Origin: Sulfurovum sp. TSL6 | Lineage (GTDB): Bacteria; Campylobacterota; Campylobacteria; Campylobacterales; Sulfurovaceae | DNA: 64,000 nt | Assembly (NCBI RefSeq): GCF_019972115.1 | Contig: NZ_BPFJ01000003.1 | Span: forward strand, 248,001 to 312,000 | Direction of reading: 5' to 3' | Part shown: positions 11,143-57,938 of the stretch, one piece after another | Numbering within the stretch: the first letter of the stretch is position 1 | Layout of the letters: each line of letters starts with the position of its first letter | Program-made: the position numbers and the translations under genes | Notes under the pieces: generated by a model | The model's input: only the letters and a program-made list of their open reading frames with translations | Told to the model about the DNA's origin: nothing | Database searches by the model: none

Positions 11143-11706
11143 TTACCACCAATAGCGTGGATAATGTCGATTTGGATTGTTCGACATATTATTGACCACA
11201 AGTGCAATGATCAATAAAATGAAGGCACCTGTTGCAATCGGTGTCATTACGTACATATAGCCTAACTCATGTATTTGAGAACTCCCTATCACAGCGATTA
11301 GGGCCGTAGCACCTCCAGGAGGATGCAAAGTGCGTGTAAAGTGCATGAGCACGATAGATAAAGAGACAGCTAAGGCACTTAGGACTGAAATTTCCATTGG
11401 GACATATTTATATACCGTGATACCTATAAATGCCGAAACAATATGGCCGCCAATTAAATTACGGGGCTGTGACAACTCTGCTTGGGGAACACCGTATATT
11501 AATACTGCAGAAGCTCCAAACGAGCCAACGAGAAAAATAGTGTCTGATGCATTCACAAAAATATATTGATTGAGAACGGATATGAGGTAAATTCCAAGGA
11601 AAGCTCCTATCCCGGACCAGACAACATGTGACAAACGTGCTCTAGACGGCGGAGCTTCCAACCCCCGCATTCGATTGAAATAGCCATATAAATGCCGACG
11701 CATCAC
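11143..11706 (-). CDS. HPP-family integral membrane protein
   Basis: A 187-aa protein with about four membrane segments and the family signature LHPPGGATALIAVIG near residue 127. HPP proteins are thought to be transport or sensory membrane proteins; one branch is linked to nitrite transport in chloroplasts. The basic N-terminus (MRRHLYGYFNRMRG) fits cytoplasmic placement. It lies downstream of the globin gene on the same strand with a 70-bp gap holding a hairpin, so co-transcription is possible. Confidence 0.85.
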   Translation of the reverse strand: MMRRHLYGYFNRMRGLEAPPSRARLSHVVWSGIGAFLGIYLISVLNQYIFVNASDTIFLVGSFGASAVLIYGVPQAELSQPRNLIGGHIVSAFIGITVYKYVPMEISVLSALAVSLSIVLMHFTRTLHPPGGATALIAVIGSSQIHELGYMYVMTPIATGAFILLIIALVVNNMSNNPNRHYPRYWW

Positions 11707-11737
11707 CGTCTCCTTTGAAGGGTATTATTTGCAGTTA

Positions 11738-11766
11738 CAAGCCTATAAAAGTAATTATTAGGCTTG
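11738..11766. terminator. Hairpin between globin and HPP genes
   Basis: CAAGCCTA (11738-11745) and TAGGCTTG (11759-11766) form an 8-bp stem with a 13-nt loop. A T-tract follows on the plus strand only, while both flanking genes run on the minus strand, so it is at best an attenuator or processing site for the globin-HPP transcript. Confidence 0.35.
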
Positions 11767-11776
11767 AATACTTTTT

Positions 11777-12205
11777 TTACGATGCGTAGTATAGCTCTTT
11801 TTCTCTGGCAATTAGAATATCAGCTAAGAAAAAATAGGCTTCTTTCCACGCATCAAGAATCTCATCTGTAGCAGCATCACCCAGCACCTCTTTGATAGCA
11901 CCAAGAATGGCAGCACCGACCATTGGGTAGTGCTCAGGTTTGACATTGGTGCGGACATGGCTTTGCGCCATCTTCTCTACCGCTTTAGATAAAACGTCCA
12001 GGTTATCAATATTGGCAGCATATGCACCAACAGCCGAAGCAAGTTTTTTGTGTTGCTCGGGATCTGCATCCTTGAATAGCTCTTTGAGTTCCGGATGTTG
12101 GCTAAAAAGGATCTCATACATTTTTGTTGTGATCGCTTCTGCATGTTGAGAAACAACACCAGATGTAGCTTTGACCGTATTGATTGTTGATTGTGAAAGT
12201 GACAT
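11777..12205 (-). CDS. Single-domain globin (Cgb/Vgb type)
   Basis: A 142-aa haemoglobin without a reductase domain, like Campylobacter Cgb and Vitreoscilla Vgb. Cgb detoxifies nitric oxide to nitrate. The proximal histidine is in QSHVRTNVKPEHYPMVG; the LSQSTINTVKATSGVVSQH start and the YEILFSQHPELKELF helix are typical. AGGAG lies 5 nt before the ATG. A perfect FNR-type box and -10 lie upstream (separate entry). Its neighbours (hemerythrin, cytochrome c, Crp/Fnr regulator) support a role in NO or oxygen stress. Confidence 0.93.
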   Translation of the reverse strand: MSLSQSTINTVKATSGVVSQHAEAITTKMYEILFSQHPELKELFKDADPEQHKKLASAVGAYAANIDNLDVLSKAVEKMAQSHVRTNVKPEHYPMVGAAILGAIKEVLGDAATDEILDAWKEAYFFLADILIAREKELYYAS

Positions 12206-12233
12206 TTAATCTCCTGTTTTTTTAAGTGTTCGA

Positions 12234-12275
12234 AGTATAACCCAGAAAACGATTTAAAAAATTGATTTATATCAA
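12234..12275 (-). promoter_or_regulatory. FNR-type box and promoter of globin gene
   Basis: TTGATTTATATCAA at 12262-12275 is a perfect TTGAT-N4-ATCAA palindrome. A TATACT -10 lies at 12239-12234. The palindrome centre is 41.5 bp from the predicted start (about 12227), the class II activator position for Crp/Fnr proteins. Confidence 0.8.
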
Positions 12276-12365
12276 CTTCCAGGAAAACGAGACAAGATTT
12301 AAAACATTCATCTGGTTGCTGACACAAAATTTCTAACGGACTCGGAAAAACTATCCCACTCTTAT

Positions 12366-12974
12366 CTAATTGACTTGAATTATTTTATTTCTTAACTCTT
12401 TGGTAAGTAAAATGTCTTTTACTCTTTCCTGCCATAACGCTTTGAAAAGATTTTTCTCTTGATCGGACGCTTTTCCTTGCAATACTTTTCCCATCAAAGG
12501 CTTTAATCTTTGATCTCCTGGAATAACTGAAGGGTCATAACTGAGTGATACGGAGATATCCTTGTCCGTTCTTTTTAAAGTGACTTCTCCCGCCATTTTT
12601 TGATCATAAGCCATTAAATTATTCCTTGAAAACTTCCCATGGATCCCTTTAAAGCCTTCTTCACCACTAGCGCCTACAATAAAGGAAATAATATTTCCTA
12701 TGACACCGGTTGTTCCCTCTGTCTTTTCCCCTTTTATACCGACATGTATGTTCCCACGCTGCGGCAGTTCAGAACCGTAAAGAACGTTTAACCCAAGCAT
12801 TGCCATAAGATAGGCTCCTGCAACAGTAGGACAAGAGTGGCCTGCTTGCTTCACACAATCTAAATAACCAATCTCAATTTTACCCTCTGCAAATGCTCCT
12901 AAAAAATCACTGAGCGGATCGTAAAGTAGAATTGAATCAACTTCATCAAAAAATAAGGGATATTTCATTTTCAT
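12366..12974 (-). CDS. FmdE-domain protein
   Basis: A roughly 200-aa cytosolic protein with the FmdE-type segment CVKQAGHSCPTVAGAYLMA near residues 42-60, giving a candidate metal-binding C/H/C set. FmdE was named from the methanogen formylmethanofuran dehydrogenase operon, but its exact role is unknown, and bacteria carry it without that enzyme. ATG 12974 is preferred because AGGA lies 5 nt upstream; ATG 12968 is also possible. A palindromic operator lies upstream. Downstream of the cytochrome c gene on the same strand (75-bp gap). Confidence 0.75.
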   Translation of the reverse strand: MKMKYPLFFDEVDSILLYDPLSDFLGAFAEGKIEIGYLDCVKQAGHSCPTVAGAYLMAMLGLNVLYGSELPQRGNIHVGIKGEKTEGTTGVIGNIISFIVGASGEEGFKGIHGKFSRNNLMAYDQKMAGEVTLKRTDKDISVSLSYDPSVIPGDQRLKPLMGKVLQGKASDQEKNLFKALWQERVKDILLTKELRNKIIQVN

Positions 12975-12990
12975 CACCATCCTATTTAAA

Positions 12991-13030
12991 ATATACTATT
13001 GGACCAGTATATATATTCTACTCAACTGGT
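12991..13030 (-). promoter_or_regulatory. Palindromic operator candidate upstream of FmdE gene
   Basis: ATATACT (12991-12997) and AGTATAT (13006-13012) flank ATTGGACC, and ACCAGT (13003-13008) is answered by ACTGGT (13025-13030). Overlapping inverted repeats in this short gap suggest a repressor or activator site separate from the FNR boxes. Confidence 0.4.
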
Positions 13031-13055
13031 ATTGCAATTCGAGATACAAAAAGAG

Positions 13056-13844
13056 CTATTTATATTCCCAAAAAGGCAGTAAATACTCTATTTGTTCATC
13101 ATCGAGTATCTCAAGTGTGTCAGCAATACATTGAATATGTACTTTTGTCACAGATGCTTTCAACTTGGCTATTTCATCTATCTTATGGTCCAGACTTTTT
13201 GGGGATGCATCATCCATGAACAAAGCCTCCATCATTTCGGATTCTAAAGTATCAATTTTTCGCTTTGCTTTTTGAACCTCTCCCATCGTATGCTCTCGAA
13301 TCAAAAGAAGTTTCTTTTTTTGCTCGTCACTCAGTCCTAAAGCCTGTTTATCCCAATGTTTGATAAGCAGCTTTGTCATATGAGGCAATGCTTCTTTGTT
13401 GATCAAGAATGGAGAGTTTTGCAGTGCATTCATTTTGTCATTTCTTTGAATTTCATTGATCATAGCTACAAATTCTTCGGAGGGATAATGCTCGATCAGG
13501 TAATCTGAGATTTTAGACAGCTCTTCTTTCGAAACTGTACCTTTAAGTGAAGGCATCACGCCGTACTGTTGTACTTTGTTGGATTCACATACTGATTTTT
13601 CTGCTGCAGGGTTTAGCACATAATCAGCAATAAATGTTTTGATTTTCTCTTTATCATTCATCACCAGCTTCGTATGAAACATCACAGCCTCCATAGGGGG
13701 CGCTTTTAATGTAGGTATCATATCAGGTGTGGGTCTCTCAAGCATATGGCATGTGGCACATTTTGACTTTAATAGATCAACTTCGCTCGCGTGTAATGTA
13801 CTGATCCCAATCATTGCTGCGGCTAAAACAGTTTTTTTTATCAT
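13056..13844 (-). CDS. Periplasmic c-type cytochrome with Spy/CpxP-like C-terminal part
   Basis: A 262-aa secreted protein. A signal peptide ends around LHA at residue 19. One haem site, CATCH, is at residues 29-33, and the likely axial methionine is in YGVMPSLKG near residue 100. The second half is helical with a LTxxQ-like LGLSDEQKKKLLLIREHTMGEV segment, as in Spy/CpxP/ZraP periplasmic stress proteins, which can bind metals or act as chaperones. This pairing of a monohaem domain with an LTxxQ-type domain is unusual. It follows the hemerythrin gene by 11 bp, so both are expected to share the FNR-box promoter. Confidence 0.8.
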   Translation of the reverse strand: MIKKTVLAAAMIGISTLHASEVDLLKSKCATCHMLERPTPDMIPTLKAPPMEAVMFHTKLVMNDKEKIKTFIADYVLNPAAEKSVCESNKVQQYGVMPSLKGTVSKEELSKISDYLIEHYPSEEFVAMINEIQRNDKMNALQNSPFLINKEALPHMTKLLIKHWDKQALGLSDEQKKKLLLIREHTMGEVQKAKRKIDTLESEMMEALFMDDASPKSLDHKIDEIAKLKASVTKVHIQCIADTLEILDDEQIEYLLPFWEYK

Positions 13845-13855
13845 TTTTTCTCCTT

Positions 13856-14281
13856 TTAATTTTTATACATTTGTTGTGAAATAAACATCGCTGTCATATT
13901 ATCCATGGTGTGTATATGATTGATGATCCAATCAACGGACTGTCTGAGGTAAGCGATGATCGCATCAAGTTCACCATGTTGCTTCCAACGTATTGTAAAA
14001 TGATTCAATTCATGCAGTACTCTGTCATGTTCTGCTTTATGCATCTGATAAGGAGGGAACGCATATAAGCGCATAAGACGCTCTTCATTGGCAAAGTGCT
14101 CTTTTACATGTTGAATATATGCTTCAAGCTTTGCTTCCAGTGTTGCATGTTTTGTTTTATCATTTTCATAGATAGTGGCAAGTGCATCTATCTCATTGAG
14201 CATACTGATCTCTTCTTCATGTGTATGCTGCATCTCATCTACAGCAACATGATGCACTTGATCGATCGTAAGTAGTGGCAT
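13856..14281 (-). CDS. Bacteriohemerythrin (copy 1)
   Basis: A 141-aa hemerythrin-fold di-iron protein binding oxygen or reacting with NO. The ligands are visible in order: the first-helix H in MQHTHEEEISMLNEID, HFANEE, HKAEHD and HIHTMDNMTA. It is homologous to the divergent copy at 15228 but clearly different in sequence. Preceded by AAAGGA and the FNR-type promoter at 14303-14344. Confidence 0.92.
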   Translation of the reverse strand: MPLLTIDQVHHVAVDEMQHTHEEEISMLNEIDALATIYENDKTKHATLEAKLEAYIQHVKEHFANEERLMRLYAFPPYQMHKAEHDRVLHELNHFTIRWKQHGELDAIIAYLRQSVDWIINHIHTMDNMTAMFISQQMYKN

Positions 14282-14302
14282 GCAATATCCTTTTTTTATT
14301 GC

Positions 14303-14344
14303 ATCTTAAATGAAAAAGAAAAAAAGTGTATTGATATTTGTCAA
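14303..14344 (-). promoter_or_regulatory. FNR-type box and promoter of hemerythrin-cytochrome operon
   Basis: TTGATATTTGTCAA at 14331-14344 matches TTGAT-N4-ATCAA with one mismatch. A TAAGAT -10 lies at 14308-14303. The centre is again about 41.5 bp from the predicted start (about 14296). Confidence 0.7.
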
Positions 14345-14354
14345 GAATTACAAA

Positions 14355-14981
14355 TTAGGGTACTTTATATCCGGCTGCAGTTTGTACCAGTTTTTCTTCT
14401 TTCAGGAGTTTAGCTATATTACGAGAGAGTGTTTCGGGAGTCATGCTGAGTATGGAAGCTATCTCATATTGCTTGAGATCTAGAGCCAACTTAGGGTTTT
14501 TCTGGTAAAAATTTAATACTTTTTCTTTGGAAGTTGCAGCAAGGTTAAAATGTATATTTTGTTGGAGGAGATCGATTTTTGCAAGAAGTGATTGGATAAT
14601 CTCATAAGAAAGTCCAGGATGACTGAGAAGAAAACTTTCAAAACCATCCAGTGAAATTTTAAGAAGTGACCCATCTGTTTGAAACCTGGCTGATGAGGGT
14701 AACGGGGTCTTTCTTAGGACAGCTGCCTCAGCCAGTAATGCATATCGGTTAAAGTATCCGATCACAACCTCATTTCCTTTACTGTCATGTTTATAGACAC
14801 TCACTACGCCATCGATCAATATCATTACATTTTTACTCATCTCTCCCTGTGTAAAAACGATCGAATCTTTAGGATAATGAGATATATGTGCTTCTGTTGC
14901 AAGTTCACTGAGTTCTTGTTCATTTAATGAAGAAAACAGATTGATTTGTTCAAGGATATCTATAATATTCCGTTTTTCCAT
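14355..14981 (-). CDS. Crp/Fnr-family regulator without cysteines
   Basis: A 208-aa regulator with an N-terminal cyclic-nucleotide-binding-like barrel (about residues 10-120), a dimer helix and a C-terminal HTH. The protein has no cysteine, so it cannot carry the FNR iron-sulfur cluster. The recognition helix MTPETLSRNIAKL keeps the E-x-x-S-R set that in FNR reads TTGAT, matching the three boxes beside it. DNR/NnrR-type proteins, which sense NO through haem, have these properties. Campylobacter NssR is a functional analogue but reads a different half-site. NO sensing is inference. Confidence 0.85.
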   Translation of the reverse strand: MEKRNIIDILEQINLFSSLNEQELSELATEAHISHYPKDSIVFTQGEMSKNVMILIDGVVSVYKHDSKGNEVVIGYFNRYALLAEAAVLRKTPLPSSARFQTDGSLLKISLDGFESFLLSHPGLSYEIIQSLLAKIDLLQQNIHFNLAATSKEKVLNFYQKNPKLALDLKQYEIASILSMTPETLSRNIAKLLKEEKLVQTAAGYKVP

Positions 14982-15060
14982 AATACACCTTACATCTATC
15001 TATGTTTGATAAAGAGACTTTGAGATCGTTCAGAGTTTTGTATGACCGATAGTTGAGTGA

Positions 15061-15066
15061 ATTATA
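15061..15066 (-). promoter_or_regulatory. -10 element of the Crp/Fnr regulator gene
   Basis: TATAAT on the minus strand (15066-15061), in GTGCTATAATTC, lies about 80 bp upstream of the regulator ATG. No FNR box accompanies it, so the regulator is probably not strongly autoregulated. Confidence 0.45.
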
Positions 15067-15165
15067 GCACAACTCCAGAGCTCTATCTATCTTCCTTCAA
15101 AACATTTTCAATTTTCATATACAACCATTTCAGTCAAGTGTTTTCATTAACAGAAATAAGACATA

Positions 15166-15207
15166 TTGATCTATATCAATACACTTTTTACACTTCTATA
15201 CTATAAT
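15166..15207 (+). promoter_or_regulatory. FNR-type box and promoter of second hemerythrin gene
   Basis: TTGATCTATATCAA at 15166-15179 is a perfect palindrome. A consensus TATAAT -10 is at 15202-15207. The box centre is 41.5 bp from the predicted start (about 15214). AAAAAGGAG then precedes the ATG at 15228. Confidence 0.82.
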
Positions 15208-15227
15208 AGATAAAAAAGGAGCCTCAT

Positions 15228-15665
15228 ATGGGAATCATTTATGCTGAACAGGTAGAGTATATGAGTGTCGATCAGATGCAGAAGACACATGAGGATGAAA
15301 TTAAAATTATCAATGAGATCGATAAACTGGCTATAGGATACGAAAGAGGTACCATAGAAAAAGAAGAGCTCGAAAATAAACTGGATGAATATATCGAACA
15401 TGTGAAAGCACACTTTGCCAATGAAGAGCGTTTGATGCAAAAGTATGACTTCCCGTCTTATGAGATGCATAAATTGGCACATGATATGTTTTTAATGGAT
15501 CTTCAGTATGCAACAAGACAGTGGAAAGAGTTTGGAGATATCAATAAAATTATCAACTTTGTAGCGAAAACACCTGAGTGGATCGTCATGCACGTCAGGT
15601 CGGTAGATGCTCCAACAGCAGATTACCTTGCGAGAAAAATGGAAGATAATCATTCAGAGGATTGA
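15228..15665 (+). CDS. Bacteriohemerythrin (copy 2)
   Basis: A 145-aa hemerythrin with the iron ligands in MQKTHEDEIKIINEID, HFANEE, HKLAHD and MHVRSVDAPTA. It is divergent from the regulator and related to copy 1. The first-pair context VEYMSVDQMQKTHEDE aligns with VHHVAVDEMQHTHEEE of copy 1, indicating duplication followed by drift. It is monocistronic, facing the lnt gene end to end. Confidence 0.92.
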   Translation: MGIIYAEQVEYMSVDQMQKTHEDEIKIINEIDKLAIGYERGTIEKEELENKLDEYIEHVKAHFANEERLMQKYDFPSYEMHKLAHDMFLMDLQYATRQWKEFGDINKIINFVAKTPEWIVMHVRSVDAPTADYLARKMEDNHSED

Positions 15666-35541: not shown

Positions 35542-35805
35542 CTATTTTACGTTTTCAAATGGATTTTCAACAACATTCTTTCTATCTACGATATAAGGAA
35601 TAAGTGCTGTTTGTCTAGCTCTTTTGATTGCTCCAGTTACAAGCTCTTGGTGTCTTTTACAGTTACCAGTGAGTCTTCTTGGCATAATTTTAAATCTCTC
35701 ACTTAGTGAGAATTTAAGTTGCCCTAAATCTTTGTAGTCTATAAAGTCTACTTTCATTTCACAATATTTACAAAATCTTTTTTTGAATTTTCTTCTTTCT
35801 GCCAT
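35542..35805 (-). CDS. rpsR: 30S ribosomal protein S18, copy 1
   Basis: 87 aa with [10 protein letters not shown] and [26 protein letters not shown], the S18 signature; the cysteines could bind zinc. The strong leader AGGAGA lies before ATG. S18 normally follows rpsF and ssb, but neither is upstream here; a 480-bp AT-rich spacer and a second rpsR are. It ends in lysine where copy 2 ends in arginine. Confidence 0.95.
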
Positions 35806-36326: not shown

Positions 36327-36590
36327 CTATCTTACGTTTTCAAATGGATTTTCAACAACATTCTTTCTATCTACGATATAAGGAATAAGTGCTGTTTGTC
36401 TAGCTCTTTTGATTGCTCCAGTTACAAGCTCTTGGTGTCTTTTACAGTTGCCAGTGAGTCTTCTTGGCATAATTTTAAATCTCTCACTTAGTGAGAATTT
36501 AAGTTGTCCCAAGTCTTTGTAGTCTATAAAGTCTACTTTCATTTCACAATATTTACAAAATCTTTTTTTGAATTTTCTTCTTTCTGCCAT
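36327..36590 (-). CDS. rpsR: 30S ribosomal protein S18, copy 2
   Basis: 87 aa, identical to copy 1 except for the last residue (R instead of K). The few nucleotide changes I see inside the gene are otherwise silent. Similarity stops at the start codon and about 7 bp after the stop: leader, spacer and upstream DNA are unrelated (here AAAGGACCATC before ATG). Both copies keep a ribosome-binding site and look functional. Confidence 0.93.
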
Positions 36591-57310: not shown

Positions 57311-57682
57311 TTAATTGTTCATCATACCTTTGCCTTTATTCATCATCATGTTTTGATCTTGCTTAGTCTTCATACCTTGACCTTGATTCATGCCCTGACC
57401 CTGACTCATCATGCCTTTACTCTGGTCGTTCATCATACCTTTGCCTTGGTTGCCCGTCATTCCTTGATTATTCTTTTTGTTTTTACTTTTTTTCATATAT
57501 TTTTGGCGCTCTTGAGGTGTCATGGATTGCATCCGTTTTTGCATCTCTTTTCTGAAATCTTCTTGTTGTTCCATGGGTACATTGCCTCGCATACTCATCA
57601 TCTTTTCAGTATCCATATGCGTAAAGTCTGTTGCGTAAAGCGAAGCCATCATCGCCGCTATTGTTAATATATATTTCATCAT
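57311..57682 (-). CDS. Secreted Met/Gln-rich low-complexity protein
   Basis: About 123 aa. ATG 57682 (or the next at 57679) has AAAAGGA upstream, followed by a signal peptide (YILTIAAMMASLYA). A helical part MTPQERQKYMKKSKNK precedes a tail of repeated units such as KGMMNDQ, KGMMSQGQ and GMNQGQGM, with more than a dozen methionines in the last 60 residues. Methionine clusters bind Cu(I) and Ag(I), so it is probably a periplasmic copper sponge. No close family is recognised. Confidence 0.65.
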   Translation of the reverse strand: MMKYILTIAAMMASLYATDFTHMDTEKMMSMRGNVPMEQQEDFRKEMQKRMQSMTPQERQKYMKKSKNKKNNQGMTGNQGKGMMNDQSKGMMSQGQGMNQGQGMKTKQDQNMMMNKGKGMMNN

Positions 57683-57938
57683 TTTTTCCTTTTCATGTAA
57701 ATTCATATCTTTATTAAACAAGTTTAAATCCTGTCAACATATTTCCGTTTGTCATAGTCTTTCAAACTCCTTTCTTAGTTATTTTATTTTTTTAGCAATG
57801 TTATTGATTTTTCTATCCAAACGAGCATGGTATATTCTTCTTTAGCAGTATTTCTAATGTCTTCTCTAATAAGAAAATTTTGTTCCATGATGTATCATTT
57901 ATCTTCACATTGTATGATTCAAGTGTGTATTCTTTGTG

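Follow-up and report, generated by a model that had tools for sequence, protein, structure and literature searches.

Introduction

In Campylobacter jejuni, NssR, a Crp/Fnr-type activator that lacks the iron-sulfur cluster of FNR, controls the single-domain globin Cgb and a second, truncated globin, Ctb (as summarised in PMC1274295 from Elvers 2005), and reads the site TTAAC-N4-GTTAA (PMC1274295). NssA, NssB and NssC of Wolinella and Nitrosophilus target nap, nrf and nos genes (PMC6682613), and the consensus TTGA-N6-TCAA has been used for Nss-type proteins in Nitrosophilus following work on Wolinella (PMC11539149). Denitrifying proteobacteria possess the regulators DNR and NnrR, with the box TTGATnnnnATCAA (DNR box from PMC1274295) and core regulons comprising nir, nor and nos; in A. 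ferrooxidans, a cgb-type globin operon is a predicted target of a DNR paralog (PMC1274295). In Pseudomonas aeruginosa, the Crp/Fnr regulator Anr activates mhr, encoding an oxygen-binding hemerythrin (PMC12403760). Here we analyse a 64,000-nucleotide stretch of the 2.25 Mb, 99.98% complete genome of the marine sulfur oxidiser Sulfurovum sp. TSL6 (contig C3, positions 248001-312000; hereafter the window), in which an earlier note, made from the sequence without database searches, had proposed a compact regulon coupling a globin, two hemerythrins and a cytochrome. The spacing of the promoters and their conservation in relatives support that proposal, and from sequence comparison we hold with high confidence that the regulon exists and that its reader is the adjacent Crp/Fnr-type protein, here named REG (14355-14981, minus strand).

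Results

Predicted promoters share a box and an exact spacing

Genes for an HPP-family membrane protein, a globin, an FmdE-like protein, a cytochrome, hemerythrin A and REG follow one another on the minus strand of the window, and hemerythrin B lies beyond them on the plus strand. Predicted regulator boxes precede the globin gene (TTGATATAAATCAA, 12262-12275, minus strand), the hemerythrin A-cytochrome-FmdE genes (TTGACAAATATCAA, 14331-14344, minus strand) and hemerythrin B (TTGATCTATATCAA, 15166-15179, plus strand), with zero, one and zero mismatches to TTGAT-N4-ATCAA, just as the earlier note had read them; the hemerythrin A site fits the form TTGAY. At all three promoters the gap between the box and a -10 element of the form TANNNT is exactly 22 bp, the elements being TATACT (12234-12239, minus strand), TAAGAT (14303-14308, minus strand) and TATAAT (15202-15207, plus strand). 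With the start point assumed to lie 7 bp past the -10 element, the centre of each box falls at -41.5, in agreement with the distance previously proposed. A promoter scan found no match to a sigma-70 -35 element at these three promoters, as would be expected of promoters where an activator stands in for that element. The arrangement is that of a class II FNR-type promoter, combining a site at -41.5 from a predicted start, a -10 element and the lack of a consensus -35.

The box by itself is weak proof: with up to two mismatches, its 86 occurrences in the window are no enrichment over the 75.7 expected, and it was accordingly dropped as sole evidence. The same count is what favours regarding the boxes as accidental, given a short palindrome and an AT-rich genome. 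However, two perfect boxes in the window are placed 22 bp from TANNNT, against an expectation of 0.01 from shuffling. Together with the genome-wide distribution of the pattern and its retention at orthologous genes, both described below, this enrichment refutes the chance-match explanation, to which we attach next to no probability.

The predicted regulon extends beyond the window

The full pattern, TTGAY-N4-RTCAA-N22-TANNNT, has six matches in the whole genome. Three are the promoters of the window, two stand at hemerythrin genes unlinked to it and the sixth is inside an unrelated open reading frame. The unlinked promoters precede the hemerythrins at C1:290660 and C1:932854, the latter 65% identical to hemerythrin B. 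In total, the genome encodes six hemerythrins and two globins of the Vgb/flavohemoglobin type, and the full box promoter stands at four of the former and one of the latter and is absent from the rest. The chance of five of six matches falling at these eight genes is about 8e-13 (taking an estimated number of roughly 2200 genes), a value that serves only as a guide because the extension of the pattern to TTGAY followed inspection of hemerythrin A and the relatives. The regulon envisaged in the earlier note was thus right in its three window promoters and incomplete in its extent, as it did not take in the two hemerythrin promoters elsewhere in the genome or the HPP and FmdE-like genes, themselves probable members.

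Other sites and genes were considered and set aside. Perfect boxes elsewhere occur at 15 places in the genome, and those inspected lie mostly inside open reading frames and have no -10 element at 22 bp; other boxes with one mismatch, hemerythrin A excepted, are within open reading frames or face no gene. No box at an activating position was found for the second globin (whose counterparts in three relatives likewise have none), for both truncated globins or for the glmS-linked hemerythrin. The hemerythrin at C1:287240 has only a two-mismatch site at a spacing of 21 and is a possible weak member.

In the region L092:2705-4247 (G000:C1, ~931.7-933.2 kb) the boxed hemerythrin gene faces away from truncated globin and thioredoxin genes; upstream of the truncated globin, 33 bp before its start, is a site with one mismatch, TTGATCTACATGAA, that has no -10 element at 22 bp.

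Box, spacing and gene content are conserved in relatives

REG has orthologs throughout Sulfurovum and in bins of Sulfurimonas and Arcobacter (50-89% identity; 87% for Sulfurovum sp. AR). The cluster is present in four close relatives with all three boxes in place and the -10 elements 22 bp away (the TATACT of the globin promoter is kept in all four), and where a box varies, it is by no more than a T-to-C change in one half-site. Conservation at the globin promoter is complete for the box, versus 36% for its flank. The same four relatives do not have hemerythrin A; in them the box lies directly upstream of the cytochrome gene, and the cytochrome hence looks like an independent target. Among the tested genomes of the family, counting only orthologs with upstream sequence, TTGAY-N4-RTCAA at 22 bp from TANNNT precedes 18 of 18 globin orthologs and 18 of 18 hemerythrin B orthologs, including genes away from REG. 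Chance would supply the pattern at about 1e-4 per promoter.

Gene content follows the same pattern. In a set of 48 related genomes, 24 with REG and 24 without, globin and hemerythrin B were each detected in 19 of the 24 that carry the regulator and in none of the others (Fisher 7e-9, a value that is only a guide since the genomes share ancestry).

At two loci, L088:4168-5723 and L139:269-1797, REG orthologs lie directly upstream of a protoglobin-PsiE fusion protein, an association that points to a membrane gas sensor tied to REG.

No second Crp/Fnr transcription factor was found in the genome

REG is a protein of 208 residues whose placement in the Crp/Fnr superfamily comes from domain, homology and structure comparison. 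It contains an N-terminal cNMP-type beta-roll (PF00027, 1.2e-16) and a C-terminal Crp-type helix-turn-helix (PF13545, 5.6e-6, a match 0.3 bits below the cut-off), and its structure model aligns with Crp/Fnr structures at Z 16 across ~200 residues, a search that confirms the fold and gives no pointer to the ligand. The recognition helix reads TPETLSR and so bears the E-x-x-S-R previously noted. REG contains no cysteine and none is conserved among 35 members of its clade, which rules out an FNR-type iron-sulfur cluster, as the earlier note had argued. The invariant S96 of the clade lies, in an alignment by eye, roughly at the position of Arg82 of CRP, the cAMP-binding arginine of the phosphate-binding cassette. 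In the Crp/Fnr proteins compared in PMC1274295, Ser or Pro at position 180 with Glu at 181 correlates with TTGA half-sites, and NssR, with A180/Q181, reads TTAAC; the P-E-x-x-S-R helix of REG agrees with this correlation.

A genome search for cNMP-domain families returned two proteins, REG and a CBS/DUF294 nucleotidyltransferase protein, and a search with REG itself likewise gave two matches. REG is therefore the only Crp/Fnr transcription factor found in the genome, although a very divergent one could escape both searches, and it is the sole candidate reader of the boxes found here. It might be supposed that REG performs a different role and that the boxes are read by some other Crp/Fnr protein, for instance an FNR of the cluster type, and paralogs with the same helix do occur in relatives; with the DUF294 protein as the sole other cNMP protein, we regard this as very improbable.

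The regulator itself appears to stand outside its own regulon, a feature that the earlier note had overlooked. The 250 bp upstream of REG, on its own strand, contain no box, and autoregulation in this genome was rejected on that basis; the region holds a candidate box-free sigma-70 promoter, TAGATA-N17-TATAAT with TG before the -10 element (15061-15089, minus strand), which is a consensus match only (10/12). REG is probably made constitutively here and acts through its ligand. Several distant relatives have the gene order box, globin, REG, an order that would place REG under positive feedback there.

Paralogous regulators share the recognition helix and the box

Those Sulfurovum genomes that have no close REG ortholog but do have paralogs of 35-40% identity often hold many sites of the form box-N22-TANNNT, up to 14 each, though in some of them such sites are few or absent. 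In one genome (G063), several box sites share a region with NapA and the gene for a paralogous regulator. The recognition helix of the paralogs reads T-P-E-[TG]-[FL]-S-R (Sulfurovum paralogs, 33-40% identity). Additionally, in two Sulfurovum genomes without REG (G064 and G086; loci L104 and L116, box at 1529) the FmdE-like gene has its own box-N22-TATAAT promoter, which links a member of the window operon to the paralogous regulators.

At loci L165-L168, distant paralogs of REG (33-36% identity) adjoin a divergent hemerythrin gene whose product is 37-40% identical to hemerythrin A, and the link between regulator and hemerythrin is therefore older than REG.

Products of the predicted targets

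The globin (11777-12205, minus strand; Pfam Globin 7.2e-16) is a single-domain protein of the Vgb/flavohemoglobin type whose closest relatives in the PDB are thermoglobin 7dih, Vgb 1vhb and flavohemoglobins. The gene for the HPP-family membrane protein (11143-11706, minus strand; Pfam TM_HPP 3.7e-57) lies 3' of it on the same strand across a 70 bp gap, an order shared by four close relatives, and is its probable operon partner through inferred co-transcription. Hemerythrin A (13856-14281, minus strand; Pfam Hemerythrin 2.5e-8) has iron-ligand motifs that align across its paralogs, and hemerythrin B (15228-15665, plus strand) matches TIGR02481 above the cut-off (8.2e-18), with bacteriohemerythrins as its relatives in the PDB. 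The cytochrome (13056-13844, minus strand) has a single CxxCH motif, CATCH, consistent with one haem, and a Metal_resist-like C-terminal region, scoring just under the family cut-off. Downstream of its gene lies that of the FmdE-like protein (12366-12980, minus strand; Pfam FmdE 6.4e-5), probably a member of the same operon. A sequence search of the PDB gave no informative relative for the cytochrome or the FmdE-like protein. By operon position, the HPP and FmdE-like genes probably belong to the regulon.

Other features of the window

Two open reading frames of 87 residues on the minus strand, at 35542-35805 and 36327-36590, differ only in their last residue and by eye resemble ribosomal protein S18 (rpsR). 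They sit within a 281-nucleotide repeat whose copies, 785 bp apart, share 97% identity. Duplication of a gene for a ribosomal protein is unusual, and an assembly artefact is also possible for this pair. A small protein at 57311-57721 (minus strand) has a repeated C-terminal tail rich in Met, Gly and Gln, encoded in part by three imperfect 62-nucleotide copies at 57317-57489, and is possibly a periplasmic metal-binding protein.

Discussion

Our findings suggest a model in which REG, presumably as a homodimer, would bind TTGAY-N4-RTCAA centred at -41.5 and recruit RNA polymerase in a class II manner, activating five promoters: those of globin-HPP, hemerythrin A-cytochrome-FmdE, hemerythrin B and the hemerythrins at C1:290660 and C1:932854. 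The products of these targets would bind oxygen and NO (nitric oxide); the globin may oxidise NO to nitrate with oxygen, and the hemerythrins may bind either gas and shield iron-sulfur enzymes. The signal would most likely be NO, perhaps sensed through haem as has been proposed for DNR.

In comparison with the described systems, REG appears to work like NssR or DNR. With NssR it shares the Crp/Fnr type without an FNR cluster, the phylum and a single-domain globin as predicted target, control being inferred from the box at the globin orthologs; it differs in having Pro-Glu in the helix and TTGAY-N4-RTCAA as its site, so that membership of the NssR group fails on the half-site, as the earlier note had anticipated, and in that its other box targets are hemerythrins rather than a truncated globin. 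The box satisfies the consensus of the Nss proteins and is hence of the sort that other Nss-type proteins of the phylum are reported to use; these are set apart, on published descriptions, by their targets, and NapA was not found here. The designation DNR/NnrR-type proposed in the earlier note can be retained for the box and the recognition helix. Membership of that group is not supported, since the targets are globin and hemerythrins rather than denitrification genes, with NorB and NapA not found and nir and nos not searched for directly. Anr differs in its oxygen-labile iron-sulfur cluster and large regulon, against no cysteine and about five promoters for REG. There is also a likeness to HcpR, in that distant globin promoters of REG relatives also read TTGAC-N4-GTCAA; however, its core targets are unlike, and no hcp gene was recognised at the box promoters in this genome. 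In the papers open to our search, we found no description of this regulon in Sulfurovum.

Several points weigh against the model. The 48 genomes compared are related, and co-occurrence partly reflects shared ancestry; globin was not detected in five of the 24 genomes with REG, most of which are incomplete bins; and at two Sulfurimonas loci with a globin beside REG (L156 and L160) no site was found within the stretch searched. In relatives that hold paralogs with the same helix, those paralogs could read the box. Furthermore, neither NapA nor NorB was found in the genome (NirS, NirK, NosZ and NrfA were not searched for), which weakens the case for NO.

For the signal, NO is favoured by the box, the recognition helix and the FmdE-like target, all common to REG and the denitrification-linked paralogs of relatives. 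The Vgb/flavohemoglobin type of the globin points in the same direction, as do, by analogy, the control of globins by NssR and the pairing of a DNR paralog with cgb that is predicted for A. ferrooxidans (PMC1274295). The HPP gene was also counted for NO, as the family is described as including a candidate plant plastid nitrite transporter (Maeda 2014, as cited in PMC4137279). With the same regulator and regulon, the signal might instead be oxygen or redox state, the globin and four hemerythrins forming an oxygen-handling set with which an aerobic Sulfurovum lineage would protect or feed its respiration. Consistent with this, aa3/caa3-type and cbb3 oxidases are present in a genome where NapA and NorB were not found; a caa3 oxidase is also known from the relative Sulfurovum sp. 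AR, whose source was aerobic sediment (PMC10066037); Anr governs an oxygen-binding hemerythrin in Pseudomonas (PMC12403760); and C. jejuni hemerythrins are cited as protecting iron-sulfur enzymes (Kendall 2014, in PMC6682613). Yet REG has no cysteine for an FNR-type cluster, and it has the box and the FmdE-like target in common with paralogs linked to denitrification. We therefore treat an oxygen or redox signal as the less probable, if serious, alternative, and lean towards NO as the main signal; the explanation as a whole, a REG regulon responding to NO, is likewise the one that we prefer, with some reserve.

A cluster at L175 (G000:C2:104000-117000) comprises siroheme synthase, nitrite/sulfite reductase, a ferredoxin-anchor protein and a molybdenum reductase of the assimilatory type, with ammonium transporter and PII-like genes next to them. 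It probably serves nitrate assimilation, and some formation of NO from nitrite is therefore possible.

More speculatively, REG may represent a separate gas-sensing branch in Campylobacterota whose main task across the genome, in sulfur oxidisers that live aerobically and have no NapA/NorB denitrification, is a mixed haem and di-iron shield of globin and several hemerythrins. Beside the globin, the hemerythrins would then act as scavengers of NO or oxygen, and the regulator would possess an undescribed ligand site in which the clade-conserved His65 and His144 possibly take part. We consider this conceivable but doubtful.

Bacterial hemerythrins are common, and their roles and the signals that govern them are little known. 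A likely regulator, its DNA site and a co-regulated globin, tied together across a family, make the part played by hemerythrins in defence against NO as opposed to oxygen directly testable. Indeed, with one detected reader and about five target promoters, this regulon is a clean minimal case, and it lends context to the HPP and FmdE-like proteins.

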